DNA of 64,000 nt from Clostridia bacterium (GTDB taxonomy: Bacteria; Bacillota; Clostridia; Lachnospirales; Anaerotignaceae), in assembly GCA_009929735.1 (NCBI GenBank), contig RZZU01000013.1:1-64000 (forward strand), written 5' to 3'. Numbering within the stretch: the first letter of the stretch is position 1; each line of letters begins with the position of its first letter. Shown here in pieces: positions 40,920-47,977 of the stretch. A model generated the notes under the pieces. It made no database searches. It worked only from the letters and a program-made list of their open reading frames with translations, and was not told the origin of the DNA. Position numbers and translations under genes: made by a program.

Positions 40920-40948
40920 TTGACACAGTCTATGAGAAGAAGTATAAT
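40920..40948 (+). promoter_or_regulatory. Consensus sigma-A promoter of the LRR-VWA-MoxR operon
   Basis: TTGACA at 40920-40925 and TATAAT at 40943-40948 both match the consensus exactly and are 17 bases apart. This is one of the best housekeeping promoters in the window and implies strong basal expression. Confidence 0.85.
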
Positions 40949-40982
40949 GAAGCAATAAATTAAATTTAAAAAGGATACTGCT

Positions 40983-42164
40983 ATGAAACCAATAAAAAAG
41001 GTTATTTTATATTATAAAGCTTCTGCCGAGGGTATTATCATTTTGGGTGCTAAGGGCAGAGCAAGCCAACTGCATATTCCCAATGCCATAGATGGCAAGC
41101 CTGTTGTTGCCATTGGCGATTATGCCTTTGCCATCGAAACGGAGCAGCCCATGGCAGAAGAGGAAAGCATGGGAGAAATTACGCTTTGCCCCGCCACGGA
41201 GGAGCGCACCGCCGTTCCCCGAGAAGAGGAAGGGGATGCCCTCCTTCGTATTATTCTGCCTGATACTATCCGCCGCATTGGTGCCTATGCCTTTTATGGC
41301 TGTAACGCCTTGCGCAATGTTCTTTTGCCTGAAGGGCTGGAGGAAATTGCTCCCTATACCTTTTCGGGCTGTTCTGCCTTGGAAACATTGACCCTGCCCA
41401 AAAAAATACAAAAAATCGGCGGCTATGCCTTTTATGACTGCCACGCAATCAAAACGCTTCAAGTTCCCGAAGGCGTTACTTCCATCGGACAGTACGCTTT
41501 TTATAATTGCAGATCGCTGACAAAAATAAATATCCCAAAAAACACAGAGCATCTGGAAACGGGATTGTTTTTGAACTGTGATTCTTTATATGAAATTCAT
41601 TTTGGGCAATGCAATCATGTTTCCGATTTGATTGCCGTTTTAAACCACGAGCTGTTACTTACCATTGACTTTCCGGATGCCCGTGTAAAGCTTTTGATTC
41701 CAGATTTTCAATACGAATATATTGAGGACACCCCTGCAAGAATGTTTCATCAAATCAATTATGGCTCAGGTCATCTGTTCCGCCAGTGTATCCGCAATGC
41801 TGATGTTGATTTCCGCAGATACGACGAATTGTTTTATCTGACCAAACGGGAGGATGCGGCTGTTTTGGTACTGCTTTTGGCCGTGTATCGCCTTTCCTAC
41901 CCCTATCGTCTGCCCGAAAACCGCCGTGAAACCTATCTTTCCTATGTAAGAGAGCATTTGCTTTTTGCGGCGCAATATTATATTGAGCAAAATGATTTGG
42001 AAACCCTTCGTCAGTTTGCCTTATGGGGACTTTTCACCTCCCAAACCTTACCTCAAATCCTTGATTTGGCGCAGAAAAAACGGAAAACTGAAATACTCAG
42101 CTTTCTTATGGATTATCAGCACAAAAATGCTGTCCAAGCAACGAAAAAAAACTTTGATTTGTAA
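40983..42164 (+). CDS. Cytoplasmic leucine-rich repeat (LRR_5/BspA-like) protein
   Basis: This 393-residue protein has no signal peptide. BspA-type repeats of about 23 residues (pattern LPxxIxxIGxYAFxxCxxLxx) run from about residue 28 to 205, interrupted by an acidic insert at about 51-86. The C-terminal half (about 215-393) is helical without repeats (FYLTKREDAAVLVLLLAVYRLSYPYRLP). BspA-like repeats are usually on surface proteins, so a cytoplasmic one tied to a MoxR/VWA pair is unusual. AAAAGGATACTGCT precedes the ATG. The next gene starts 11 bases later. Confidence 0.85.
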   Translation: MKPIKKVILYYKASAEGIIILGAKGRASQLHIPNAIDGKPVVAIGDYAFAIETEQPMAEEESMGEITLCPATEERTAVPREEEGDALLRIILPDTIRRIGAYAFYGCNALRNVLLPEGLEEIAPYTFSGCSALETLTLPKKIQKIGGYAFYDCHAIKTLQVPEGVTSIGQYAFYNCRSLTKINIPKNTEHLETGLFLNCDSLYEIHFGQCNHVSDLIAVLNHELLLTIDFPDARVKLLIPDFQYEYIEDTPARMFHQINYGSGHLFRQCIRNADVDFRRYDELFYLTKREDAAVLVLLLAVYRLSYPYRLPENRRETYLSYVREHLLFAAQYYIEQNDLETLRQFALWGLFTSQTLPQILDLAQKKRKTEILSFLMDYQHKNAVQATKKNFDL

Positions 42165-42175
42165 AGGAGGACATT

Positions 42176-43567
42176 ATGAACGAAACCCATCAGCGTCTGA
42201 TACAAATCGGCAATGCAATTTTGAATGCCTCCCGCAATGAATTATATTTGTCCCTGCGGTTTTTAGATATTGCATTAAGCGGTCTGCGGTATGAAATGAA
42301 TCTGTCCTCCCTTTATGTGGGAACGGACGGCGAAAAAGTTTTGTTTAATCCACGCTATCTGATCGAGCGGTATCAGTGCGACCCCGTTTTGGTGAACCGC
42401 CTTTACCTGCATATGCTTTTGCATTGTATTTTCCGCCATCCTTTTCATACAGGAGAACGGGAGAATGCCCTTTGGGGCCTAGCCTGCGATGTTGCCGTAG
42501 AATCCATGATTGATGCCCTGCCGCTAAAAGCGACGCATCTGGTGGTTTCCGACCGCAGAAACGAACTTTATGACGAGCTGAAAAAGGATTTAAAGGTGCT
42601 TTCCGCCGAGGGCATTTACCGCAAGCTTTCGGAGAAAAAATTTACCGATCAGGAATTTGGAAAGCTTCAGCTTGAATTTTGGGTGGACGACCATGTTTTT
42701 TGGGAACAAAAAAAAGAGGATAACAAAAATCAGGATAATGAAAATCAAGATCATGAAAATCAAGATAATGAAAATCAAGACGAATCCGAGCAAAAGAACC
42801 GAGAAAAGCAAAAGCAGCTGGAGGAAAAATGGCAGCAAATCGGTGAAAAAATGGAAACCAATTTGGAAACCTTCTCAAAGGAGATGGGTGAAAATGCGGG
42901 GGATTTATTACAGCTTTTGAAAATAGAAAATCGGGAAAAATATGACTACCGCCGCTTTCTGGAAAAATTTGTTACTTTAAAAGAGGATTTGCGAGTGGAC
43001 GACGACTCCTACGATTATATCTTTTATACCTACGGGCTGTCCCTCTACGGAAATCTGCCTTTGATTGAATCCTTGGAATATAAGGAAGTAAAAAAAATAG
43101 AGGAGCTGGTCATTGCCATCGATACCTCCGAATCGTGTGAAGGTGAAACGGTACGTCGTTTTTTGGAACAAACCTATGCAATTCTTAACAGCAGTGAAAC
43201 CTTCTTCCATAAAATCAATATTCACCTCCTGCAATGTGACGCAAAAATACAGCAGGATACCATCATCACCTCCAAGGAGGAGCTGGAGAACTACATGGAC
43301 AACTTCCGCCTGATGGGCAGCGGCGGTACAGATTTCCGCCCCGTGTTTGAATATGTTGACAACCTGATTGTAGAAAAGGCTTTTCAAAATCTAAAGGGAC
43401 TGATTTATTTTACAGACGGCTATGGCAGCTTTCCCCGCCGTCGTCCCTCCTACGATACAGCTTTTGTGTTTTTCCACGAAGAATATTTAGACCTGAATGT
43501 GCCACCTTGGGCGATGAAGGTTGTGCTTGGCACACAAGACCTTGCAATCTATGATAAGGAGAACTGA
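42176..43567 (+). CDS. VWA-like / DUF2201-type protein with degenerate metallopeptidase motif
   Basis: This 463-residue protein has two parts. The N-terminal part resembles the DUF2201 metallopeptidase-like domain, but where HExxH is expected it reads HMLLHCIFRH (residues 79-88), lacking the catalytic Glu. A spacer with the repeat QDNEN (185-203) and a charged helix follows. The C-terminal VWA-like domain has the MIDAS residues DTSES (316-320), Thr385 in GGTDF and Asp414 in YFTDGYG. Such proteins are substrate adaptors for MoxR ATPases, encoded here three bases downstream. AAAGGAGG precedes the ATG. Confidence 0.85.
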   Translation: MNETHQRLIQIGNAILNASRNELYLSLRFLDIALSGLRYEMNLSSLYVGTDGEKVLFNPRYLIERYQCDPVLVNRLYLHMLLHCIFRHPFHTGERENALWGLACDVAVESMIDALPLKATHLVVSDRRNELYDELKKDLKVLSAEGIYRKLSEKKFTDQEFGKLQLEFWVDDHVFWEQKKEDNKNQDNENQDHENQDNENQDESEQKNREKQKQLEEKWQQIGEKMETNLETFSKEMGENAGDLLQLLKIENREKYDYRRFLEKFVTLKEDLRVDDDSYDYIFYTYGLSLYGNLPLIESLEYKEVKKIEELVIAIDTSESCEGETVRRFLEQTYAILNSSETFFHKINIHLLQCDAKIQQDTIITSKEELENYMDNFRLMGSGGTDFRPVFEYVDNLIVEKAFQNLKGLIYFTDGYGSFPRRRPSYDTAFVFFHEEYLDLNVPPWAMKVVLGTQDLAIYDKEN

Positions 43568-43569
43568 TT

Positions 43570-45108
43570 ATGAATATAAAACAGGCAAAGGAAGAAATCG
43601 AAAAATCCATACAGGCTTATTTATTGAAAAACGAATTCGGTGAATACCTCATTCCCCGTGTGCGTCAGCGTCCCATTTTGCTCATGGGTGCGCCCGGCAT
43701 CGGCAAAACCGCCATTATGGAGCAGGTGGCAAGAGAATGTGGCGTCGCTTTGGTTTCCTACAGTATTACGCACCATACACGTCAAAGCGCCATCGGTCTG
43801 CCCTTTATCAGCCATAAAACTTATGGTGGCAAGGAGTATGCCGTTACAGAGTATACCATGAGCGAAATCATTGCCTCTGTTTATAACAAAATAGAAGAAA
43901 CAGGGCTTGCGGAGGGCATTCTTTTTATCGATGAAATTAATTGCGCCTCGGAAACACTTGCCCCTGCCATGCTGCAATTTTTGCAGGCAAAGACCTTCGG
44001 TGCCCATAGCGTACCCGACGGTTGGCTGATTGCGGCGGCAGGGAATCCCCCCGAATATAACAAAAGTGTGCGAGAGTTTGACGTTGTAACCCTTGATCGT
44101 GTGAAAAAAATCGATGTTGAGCCTGATTTTCAGGTTTGGAAGGAATATGCCTATCAGCAGTCTGTCCATGGGGCAATTCTTTCCTATTTGGAAATCAAGA
44201 AAAATAATTTTTATGCCATGGAAACCACCGTTGACGGAAAGCGTTTTGTAACCGCCAGAGGCTGGGAGGATCTTTCTACCATTTTAAAGGTTTATGAAGC
44301 GATGAACCTTGCGGCGGATGCAGGCATGATTGTGCAATATTTGCAGCACCAAAAAATCGCCAGAGATTTCGCCAACTATCTGGATTTATACAACAAATAC
44401 AAAACCGATTATCATGTGGAGGATATTTTAAACGGCACCTTTACGGAGCAGTCTGTATCAAAGCTCTCCGCCGCCGCCTTTGATGAAAAGCTGAGCGTCC
44501 TTGGGTTGCTGCTCAGTCGCCTTTCCGTTGATTTTCGGTTGGCGTATGAACGGGATTTGTTCACCACCGAGCTGCACCAAAGTCTGCTGGAATTAAAGGA
44601 ACGCTTCCAAAGCTCCTATTGCAAGGAAACCCCTTGGGATAAGCTGATGGAGGGCTTGTTGGAAGAAAAGGAAACTGCCTTCACGCAAGCGCAAAAGGCG
44701 AACCTTTTAGACCAAAGCACAAAGAGAAGCCGCCGTATGACCATAGAACGGCTCATTGCCTACGAAAATGACATCAAAGGCTTGGGAATTCATGAAAAAG
44801 ATGAGGTTTTTGTGCAAATGAAAACCGCCTTTGCCAAGGAGGTTGCGCTTCGTGAAAATTCCATTGATACAGCGGCAAAGGAATTGAATAACACATTCCT
44901 GTTTTTAGAGGAAGCGTTTGGCGCAGGGCAGGAAATGGTTATCTTCATCACTGAATTAACCACGAATTTTTACAGCGTAAAATTCATCAGCGAAAACGGC
45001 AGTGAAAAGTATTATCAGTATAATAAGGAATTATTGTTTGATGAAAAACAAAAAAGCATTTTAAAGGATATTGAATCCGCAAAAGCAGAGGGAACCTTGC
45101 TGTTTTAA
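43570..45108 (+). CDS. MoxR-type AAA+ ATPase
   Basis: This 512-residue ATPase has an N-terminal AAA+ core: Walker A GAPGIGKT (40-47), Walker B ILFIDE (117-122), sensor-1 Asn159 in AAAGNPPE and an arginine at 177 in LDRVKK. From about residue 230 to the end it is a long helical region with no recognised domain. MoxR ATPases remodel or load metal into partner proteins with a VWA adaptor; the adaptor is encoded just upstream. The partner acted on here may be the LRR protein, which is an inference from gene order. Confidence 0.87.
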   Translation: MNIKQAKEEIEKSIQAYLLKNEFGEYLIPRVRQRPILLMGAPGIGKTAIMEQVARECGVALVSYSITHHTRQSAIGLPFISHKTYGGKEYAVTEYTMSEIIASVYNKIEETGLAEGILFIDEINCASETLAPAMLQFLQAKTFGAHSVPDGWLIAAAGNPPEYNKSVREFDVVTLDRVKKIDVEPDFQVWKEYAYQQSVHGAILSYLEIKKNNFYAMETTVDGKRFVTARGWEDLSTILKVYEAMNLAADAGMIVQYLQHQKIARDFANYLDLYNKYKTDYHVEDILNGTFTEQSVSKLSAAAFDEKLSVLGLLLSRLSVDFRLAYERDLFTTELHQSLLELKERFQSSYCKETPWDKLMEGLLEEKETAFTQAQKANLLDQSTKRSRRMTIERLIAYENDIKGLGIHEKDEVFVQMKTAFAKEVALRENSIDTAAKELNNTFLFLEEAFGAGQEMVIFITELTTNFYSVKFISENGSEKYYQYNKELLFDEKQKSILKDIESAKAEGTLLF

Positions 45109-45117
45109 GCCGATCAA

Positions 45118-45165
45118 AGCGGAAGCCTTGTATGTCCTAAACCCTACAAGTCTTCCGTTTTTTTT
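45118..45165 (+). terminator. Terminator of the LRR-VWA-MoxR operon
   Basis: GCGGAAGCCTTGTA and TACAAGTCTTCCGT pair around a short loop and are followed by nine Ts. Confidence 0.85.
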
Positions 45166-45228
45166 TTGCATTTTCTCTATTGTGTTCCTCCATAAATCAG
45201 TATATCATCACCTTAGGAGGTGTATATC

Positions 45229-46630: not shown

Positions 46631-47977
46631 TTACGCTTCCTCCACCACATCAATTTCCTCTATCCCATACAGCAGAAAAAGCGCTATCATTTCTTGCGTA
46701 ATGCGCTCACCACTAATGGCAATGGGGATGGCCGGGGGGCAAGAAACCGCAGGTGCCGCACAAATCTGCCCCAAGGCTTGCTCTGCCCAAACGGTACGCC
46801 GCTTTGCAAACATTGCTTCTCGGATAGACATGGCTTGCTCTGACTCAACAAGCAGTACGGTTTTTCGCGCCTCCCAACTCCTTGCAATCACAGGCGGAAA
46901 AGCCGCCTCGATTTTCTCAAAATCAATATCCTTCGTTTCGGGCGTAAACATCAAAACAAGATGATCCTCATCGGCAAATTCCGCCTCAATCCCCTTTTCA
47001 CGCAAAAATTCCGCCAACGCATATCCTGTAATGCCAATTTTTGCGCCCTCCATCACCAATTTCAGCGGCTCAAAATGCTGTAAAGAATATCCCAGCTTCG
47101 TTAATCTCAAGGCAAGCTGATTTATTTTTTTGGTACACACAGCGATTTTCTCCCCGTAACCTTCCGCAACAATGCGGTTGCATAAGTCCAAGGATTGCAG
47201 TGTCAAATAGGAAGGGCTTGTGGAACCAAACAACGCCAAAGCATTTTTACCGTCGTTCTCAAACGGTGCAATGGCATCCTTTGCAATATGCAGATAGGCC
47301 CCTCCCGTTAAAACAGGCAGTGTTTTATGGGCGGAATCACAGCACATATCCGCCCCTAAATCCAACGGATGCAAGGATTCAGGCAAAAAGCGCAAATATG
47401 CCCCATGCGCATTATCCACCAATAGCGGTACGCCAAACTTTTTGCAAACCGCAGAAATTCCCCGTATATCCGCCATTCCCCCCAAATAATCGGGTGAGGT
47501 AATATAAAGCGCAAAAGGCAAAGCCTCCATTGATTTCAAAATTCTATCCAGCTGTTGTGGCGAAATGGGACAAGCGCAAAGCGTTGCCTCCTCCTCAGGA
47601 TAAATCCACTGCACCTCTAAATCCAACAAAGCACAGCTATGTAAAAACGCCTTGTGGGCATTTCTTGCCGCCAAAATCACAGGCTTCCCCTGTCCTTTTT
47701 TGCAATGAAGCATGGCTGTATAAACCATTGCCCCAATACACTGTGAGGAACCTCCCGTGGCATAAAACGTTCTTCTTGCCCCGAATAGCTGGGTTGCATT
47801 CTCCTCGCTTTGTCGAATAATCCCCTGCGGATGATAAAGGTCATCCGCCCCGTTCACCTCGGTAATATCCATCGGCTCACAGCCCAAAAAGGAGCTGCCC
47901 TTGTGCCCAGGCATATGCAGGCGAACAATCCCCTTTTTTTGATATTCTTTCACAAAGTCGTAAATCGGTGTATCCAT
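46631..47977 (-). CDS. Orn/Lys/Arg decarboxylase family protein (YaaO-like)
   Basis: This 448-residue fold-type I PLP enzyme has HMPGHKGS at the N-terminus and the PLP lysine K218 in DSAHKTLP, the signatures of the Orn/Lys/Arg decarboxylase group III family. The length matches the short Firmicutes YaaO/SpeA form. It could make cadaverine, agmatine or putrescine; SpeA-like arginine decarboxylase activity is common but unproven here. GAGGAGTAAAAGCG precedes the ATG. A polyamine importer is encoded 8 kb away. Confidence 0.88.
   Translation of the reverse strand: MDTPIYDFVKEYQKKGIVRLHMPGHKGSSFLGCEPMDITEVNGADDLYHPQGIIRQSEENATQLFGARRTFYATGGSSQCIGAMVYTAMLHCKKGQGKPVILAARNAHKAFLHSCALLDLEVQWIYPEEEATLCACPISPQQLDRILKSMEALPFALYITSPDYLGGMADIRGISAVCKKFGVPLLVDNAHGAYLRFLPESLHPLDLGADMCCDSAHKTLPVLTGGAYLHIAKDAIAPFENDGKNALALFGSTSPSYLTLQSLDLCNRIVAEGYGEKIAVCTKKINQLALRLTKLGYSLQHFEPLKLVMEGAKIGITGYALAEFLREKGIEAEFADEDHLVLMFTPETKDIDFEKIEAAFPPVIARSWEARKTVLLVESEQAMSIREAMFAKRRTVWAEQALGQICAAPAVSCPPAIPIAISGERITQEMIALFLLYGIEEIDVVEEA

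Follow-up and report, generated by a model that had tools for sequence, protein, structure and literature searches.

MoxR-type AAA+ ATPases whose gene lies beside that of a VWA/MIDAS partner are known from NorQ/NorD, CbbQ/CbbO and RavA/ViaA. In NorQD, a finger of the VWA protein enters the pore of the hexamer, mutations of the MIDAS abolish client maturation while sparing the NorQ-NorD contact, and ATP cycles have been proposed to twist the VWA domain (PMC13036017, PMC9976466). MoxR-vWA ternary conflict systems join a MoxR and vWA core to a constant third protein, which is VMAP, iSTAND, FtsH, a beta-propeller protein, iSTAND2 or TERNS3 (PMC7159879, PMC8195603). In Midasin/Rea1, an AAA+ protein grips its partner with a MIDAS domain.

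Here we describe a trio of genes in a window of 64,000 nucleotides from a Clostridia bacterium (the whole of the stretch analysed, contig RZZU01000013.1). It encodes an LRR protein (L, P0001), a VWA-like protein (V, P0002) and a MoxR-type ATPase (M, P0003). The pairing of V with M is that of NorQ/NorD, CbbQ/CbbO and RavA/ViaA. Compared with NorQ/NorD, however, the trio has no linked client enzyme, V has a DUF2201_N domain in place of the NorD N-terminal domain, and a third gene, L, is retained. A gripping MIDAS is proposed here as in Midasin/Rea1, but the trio is bacterial, consists of separate subunits and has no ribosome-assembly context. The original prediction knew no described function for such a trio, and our literature searches, from which subscription journals were largely outside, agreed in finding nothing on the function of DUF2201 or on a MoxR-VWA-LRR trio. 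The features of the locus are as follows.

40920..40948, + strand: sigma-A promoter TTGACA-17-TATAAT, 12/12 consensus match
40983..42164, + strand: L gene, 393 aa, BspA-type LRR protein without signal peptide
41244..41597, + strand: LRR repeats of L (aa about 88-205), repeat number most variable between relatives, from column occupancy
41688..42161, + strand: C-terminal domain of L (aa 236-393), conserved, with beta strands followed by ankyrin-like helices, from the alignment
42176..43567, + strand: V gene, 463 aa, DUF2201_N and VWA-like domains
42410..42424, + strand: degenerate metallopeptidase motif H-M-L-L-H of V (aa 79-83), with both His residues invariant and the catalytic Glu lost
43004..43087, + strand: conserved aromatic-rich segment before the VWA core of V (aa 277-304), from conservation, with low model confidence
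43121..43135, + strand: first MIDAS motif of V, D-T-S-E-S (aa 316-320), completed by T385 and D414
43570..45108, + strand: M gene, 512 aa, MoxR-type AAA+ ATPase with C-terminal extension
44746..45105, + strand: C-terminal extension of M (aa about 393-512) with the motif GQEMVIF.TELT.N, from alignment and conservation
about 45116..45168, + strand: intrinsic terminator, hairpin and T run, fold -19.9 kcal/mol, z = -4.7

The three genes have the layout of an operon. The L-V gap is 11 bases, as originally predicted, and the V-M gap, given there as 3 bases, was counted as 2. An AAGGA-type ribosome site precedes each gene. The promoter is the sole 12/12 match within 7 kb, and both of its hexamers are invariant in five Anaerotignum loci in which the spacer and the upstream DNA have changed, which bears out the prediction of a perfect promoter. 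The strong terminator was also recovered by folding; conservation of its hairpin was looked for in relatives, and it was not kept. Rfam gave no match to an RNA element. A single LRR_5 protein and a single DUF2201 protein are encoded in the genome of the window, by adjoining genes of this operon. This, together with the recurrence of the association in nearly all independent loci, suggested that the trio is more than a chance arrangement.

Further loci were collected by searches seeded with M alone and thus blind to L. They came from Lachnospiraceae, Oscillospiraceae and other Clostridia, and since the window's M was the seed of the initial scan, its own clade matched best. Clustering of M at 80% identity left 78 loci with full-length M, and 57 of them had sufficient flank. 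An L-family gene was found inside the cluster, mostly adjacent, in 53 of these 57 independent loci, with flank genes called as the longest ORF. The C-terminal domain of L was recognisable in 50 of the 53 and diverged or absent in three. Each of the four exceptions (loci L047, L075, L083 and L118) was traced, and all have L elsewhere in the genome; in the genome of L075, L and V stand together on another contig. The genomes of L118 and of L117, the latter left out of the count for too little flank, carry unlinked, diverged L genes that resemble the linked L of their relative L116. Among the genomes followed up, none with full-length M was without L. The original prediction would have been contradicted by MoxR/VWA pairs without any LRR gene in nearly all relatives, and the loci gave the opposite picture. 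Other genes lie between the cluster members in a few loci (G028, G080 and L078); in G080 and G028, two large co-directional genes (1110 and about 540 aa) stand between V and L (L111:8133-13109, L112:8700-14639).

The co-occurrence was also counted in genome samples, with one genome per species and many metagenome assemblies among them. In the order sample (146 genomes), the L C-terminal domain was present in 27/30 genomes with full-length M and 0/116 without; in the class sample (392 genomes), the counts were 21/24 and 0/368. The p-values of these tests are nominal because related genomes are not independent. Three misses (G146, G049 and G115) have diverged L genes. All 35 domain matches of the order sample lie no more than 7.5 kb from M, 33 of them within 3 kb, and in the class sample extra L copies away from M occurred exclusively in M-bearing genomes.

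In a tree of 81 M proteins, the orders L-V-M, V-M-L and V-L-M have switched several times while L was kept. The loci without an adjacent L are scattered tips, plus two long-branch outgroups. Pairwise distances were correlated between the L domain and M (r 0.56), between the L domain and V (r 0.56) and between M and V (0.82), against a permutation maximum of 0.24, and these values partly reflect shared species history. As read from the sequences, our comparison showed co-retention of L with V and M, an operon, intact ATPase and MIDAS motifs and a conserved L domain. Wherever a followed-up clostridial genome had the pair, it also had L, which suggested that L is a dedicated third part, and we consider a partnership of L, V and M very probable. 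The original prediction combined a MoxR ATPase, its VWA adaptor and an LRR partner in the cytoplasm; the partnership was upheld, and the recognition or scaffold role of the LRR protein is kept as a possible function.

Some loci show signs of change. In Anaerotignum neopropionicum DSM 3847 (NZ_LRVM01000001.1; L033 and L041), the locus occurs in two copies that are separated by about 154 kb and identical over 17,536 bases, which is either a recent duplication or an assembly artefact. V is split into two ORFs at L117:6027-7382 (G115), where L is unlinked in the same genome, and this split suggests that V may be decaying there. M is broken into two ORFs at L127:6828-8358, in one of the copies of genome G019.

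A constant third protein beside MoxR and vWA raises the question of conflict or defence, in which L would sense an invader or damage and V-M would set the threshold, as in the ternary systems. The patchy distribution (30/146 genomes of the order sample and 24/392 of the class sample) is consistent with this, and so are paralogues inside genomes, variable LRR proteins, and tandem and unlinked L copies. However, the ternary systems described so far use different third components and are a hallmark of multicellular bacteria, whereas the trio is found in Clostridia and its third protein consists of LRRs and a C-terminal domain without a known family. By Pfam, no VMAP, iSTAND, FtsH, beta-propeller or TERNS3 component was seen at the trio. 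No linked effectors or effector-associated domains (EADs) were seen either, the neighbours show no recurrent extra gene, and Pfam and the alignment found no effector domain on V, which ends with its VWA domain. PADLOC returned nothing beyond weak AAA similarity for the window proteins. In addition, the trio sits among ordinary metabolic genes and is virtually absent from viral contigs and plasmids. With a different third component and no effectors or EADs seen, the trio falls outside the MoxR-vWA conflict systems that have been described, and we regard a role in conflict as quite improbable.

A mobile origin was considered and rejected: no plasmid record covers 80% of M, and viral contigs gave one weak relative. 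Seven 'Bacteriophage sp.' records are faecal metagenome scaffolds. Two of them, marked UNVERIFIED, L152:9611-13449 (MT835935) and L153:934-4850 (MT837836), each contain a whole L-V-M trio and look like bacterial scaffolds.

Pfam assigned L to LRR_5 with an E-value of 2.9e-35. LRR_5 was found in 29/29 L-family members scanned, and LRR families alone were above the Pfam cut-off. L thus shares its repeats with BspA-type surface proteins, but the hydropathy test found no export signal in P0001, in line with the prediction of a BspA-type protein without signal peptide. Among 73 other L-family members, the same test gave a hydrophobic start in two. L137, a secreted LRR protein unrelated to the family, was selected by its score at a locus truncated by the contig end, and the start of L135 is an atypical signal, with no preceding positive charge. 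An exported L, which would have spoken against the original prediction, was not found in the window.

The AF2 model of L (mean pLDDT 92.7) begins with a beta strand in its first residues and runs from an N-terminal beta region through the BspA-type repeats to beta strands and then helices from about residue 236. The LRR part aligned structurally with TpLRR (6mlx) with Z 23.6 and an rmsd of 2.6 over 201 residues; the LRR part dominated this PDB comparison, which barely covered the C-terminal domain. The C-terminal domain has no Pfam family in common, and its profile weakly matched PDB chains with ankyrin repeats. The two parts of L differ in conservation. Among six Anaerotignum orthologues the identity was 86% in the C-terminal part versus 74% in the repeats, and column occupancy fell to 0.3-0.5 over part of the repeat region in a 58-member alignment. 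The length of L varies between 264 and 1177 aa. Copy number varies too, with two or three L genes at some loci, a tandem arrangement at L133, and additional unlinked copies in G508 and G444. The latter (L161:4635-6602 in G508, L162:4684-5505 in G444) are L-family genes apart from V and M in genomes that also have the trio. These variations in length and copy number suggested a variable recognition part served by a constant engine. The usual C-terminal domain is absent in L144, and in L116 and L154 it is strongly diverged and only few repeats are present. A surface for recognition could thus be very small in some branches, which counts against the adaptor role. A further reading is intracellular surveillance, in which interchangeable LRR adaptors, including the extra tandem and unlinked copies, would feed clients to a shared MoxR-VWA engine. 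Its logic would be analogous to that of animal and plant LRR sensors, coupled here to ATP-driven remodelling, and we hold it to be distinctly improbable.

In V, both DUF2201 and DUF2201_N passed the Pfam cut-offs, which supports the prediction of a DUF2201/VWA-like protein. In the AF2 model (pLDDT 78.8), the VWA domain had the VWA domains of NorD and Mdn1 among its structural matches, in a PDB comparison that barely covered the N-terminal domain. The MIDAS is complete (DxSxS-T-D), with D316, S318, S320, T385 and D414 invariant in the alignment. The aromatic-rich segment before the VWA core lies, relative to the MIDAS strand, as the finger of NorD does (PMC9976466, PMC13036017), and by this analogy it may occupy the position of the pore-inserting finger. 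Together with the NorQD precedent, it suggests that V could plug the M ring.

The N-terminal domain of V has H79, H83, D105 and E109 invariant in 28 sequences. The HExxH catalytic motif is degenerate in the family: HxxxH is kept, and the Glu is replaced in all but one aligned member. This loss indicates that the domain is probably a binding platform and no protease. The retained two His, Asp and Glu could bind metal, and the closest functional precedents are of the metal-insertion kind, so that the trio might be a chaperone that inserts a metal cofactor into one enzyme, with L as scaffold, like NorQD or CbbQO. A conserved metalloenzyme neighbour is absent, however, and the hosts span many clostridial families, and we consider this function very unlikely.

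M passed the Pfam cut-offs for AAA and AAA_5. No MoxR-specific model passed (bpMoxR reached 20.6 bits against 27), and M was assigned to the MoxR class, as originally predicted, by its motifs and its VWA/DUF2201 partner. Among PDB sequences, Midasin was the top match, in the P-loop region only. In 17 diverse members, G40, G43, G45, K46, T47, D121/E122, N159, R177 and R230 are invariant. These include most positions of Walker A (G40-T47) and Walker B (D121/E122); the sensors and the Arg finger were assigned by position. A conserved extra segment, HHTRQS...EYTMSE, is present at the place expected for an insert of AAA+ clade 7, whose members carry a helix-2 insert and a pre-sensor-2 insert, as judged by alignment alone.

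The C-terminal extension of M, about 120 residues long, is missing from LRR-less MoxR-DUF2201 pairs (aligned: L142, L143, L147, L148 and L151). Four such generic pairs (L143, L147, L148 and L151) have the same two domain families in the same pairing, but their M is shorter (about 360-375 aa) and HExxH is intact in most of them. The catalytic Glu is kept in most of the LRR-less DUF2201 proteins compared (L143, L147 and L151), and no LRR gene was seen beside the four pairs. DUF2201 is also present in Thermotoga maritima. The short-M loci L141 and L142 are the long-branch outgroups without L; M lacks the extension in L142 and is cut in L141, and their number is too small for proof of a coupling between extension and L. 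At L143:3318-9034 and L147:3546-9401, the LRR-less pair is preceded by a large gene that is conserved between the two loci (1130 and 1143 aa, 60% identity) and might encode the third partner in another module of this kind.

The neighbourhood was searched for a hint at the client. Clustering of 759 neighbouring ORFs gave ordinary scattered genes and no conserved neighbour of this kind, with crude longest-ORF gene calls that may miss small genes or those masked by antisense ORFs. An Orn/Lys/Arg decarboxylase-like gene downstream (46631-47977) recalls RavA-LdcI of E. coli. It was rejected as a partner, since the linkage occurs in three close relatives only and is ordinary synteny.

L itself might be the client, with the MoxR/VWA pair maturing, assembling or disassembling the LRR protein as NorQD does for nitric oxide reductase and Midasin for assembly factors. 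LRR proteins with this fold usually need no help in folding, and Pfam showed no enzymatic or cofactor-binding domain in L for which maturation would be required. A client would also need a downstream function of its own, and none is linked. In favour of L as client, its constant domain could be the part that the MIDAS grasps, additional unlinked L copies exist, and MoxR/VWA genes are often linked to the gene of their client (norCBQDEF, PMC9976466). On balance, we regard L as an unlikely client.

We consider it fairly probable that the trio is a MoxR/VWA remodelling ATPase with L as its client-recognition adaptor. In such a machine, L, V and M would act together in the cytosol, with M forming an ATP-driven AAA+ ring. 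The VWA domain of V would bind the ring, most likely with a finger inserted into the pore, and the MIDAS metal site of V would hold an acidic residue of a partner. The conserved C-terminal domain of L may dock on V (at the MIDAS), on the C-terminal extension of M, or on both, and the variable LRR surface would select the client. Cycles of ATP hydrolysis would then twist or pull the bound client, so that a complex is remodelled or dismantled.

BspA-type LRR proteins are mostly known from the cell surface, to which they are exported. The one described here is cytosolic and, in many gut and anaerobic Clostridia, is locked to an ATP-driven remodelling pair. If L is the adaptor, the trio would give a direct handle on how MoxR/VWA machines choose their clients, and it would represent a hitherto undescribed system for protein quality or assembly in the gut microbiota.
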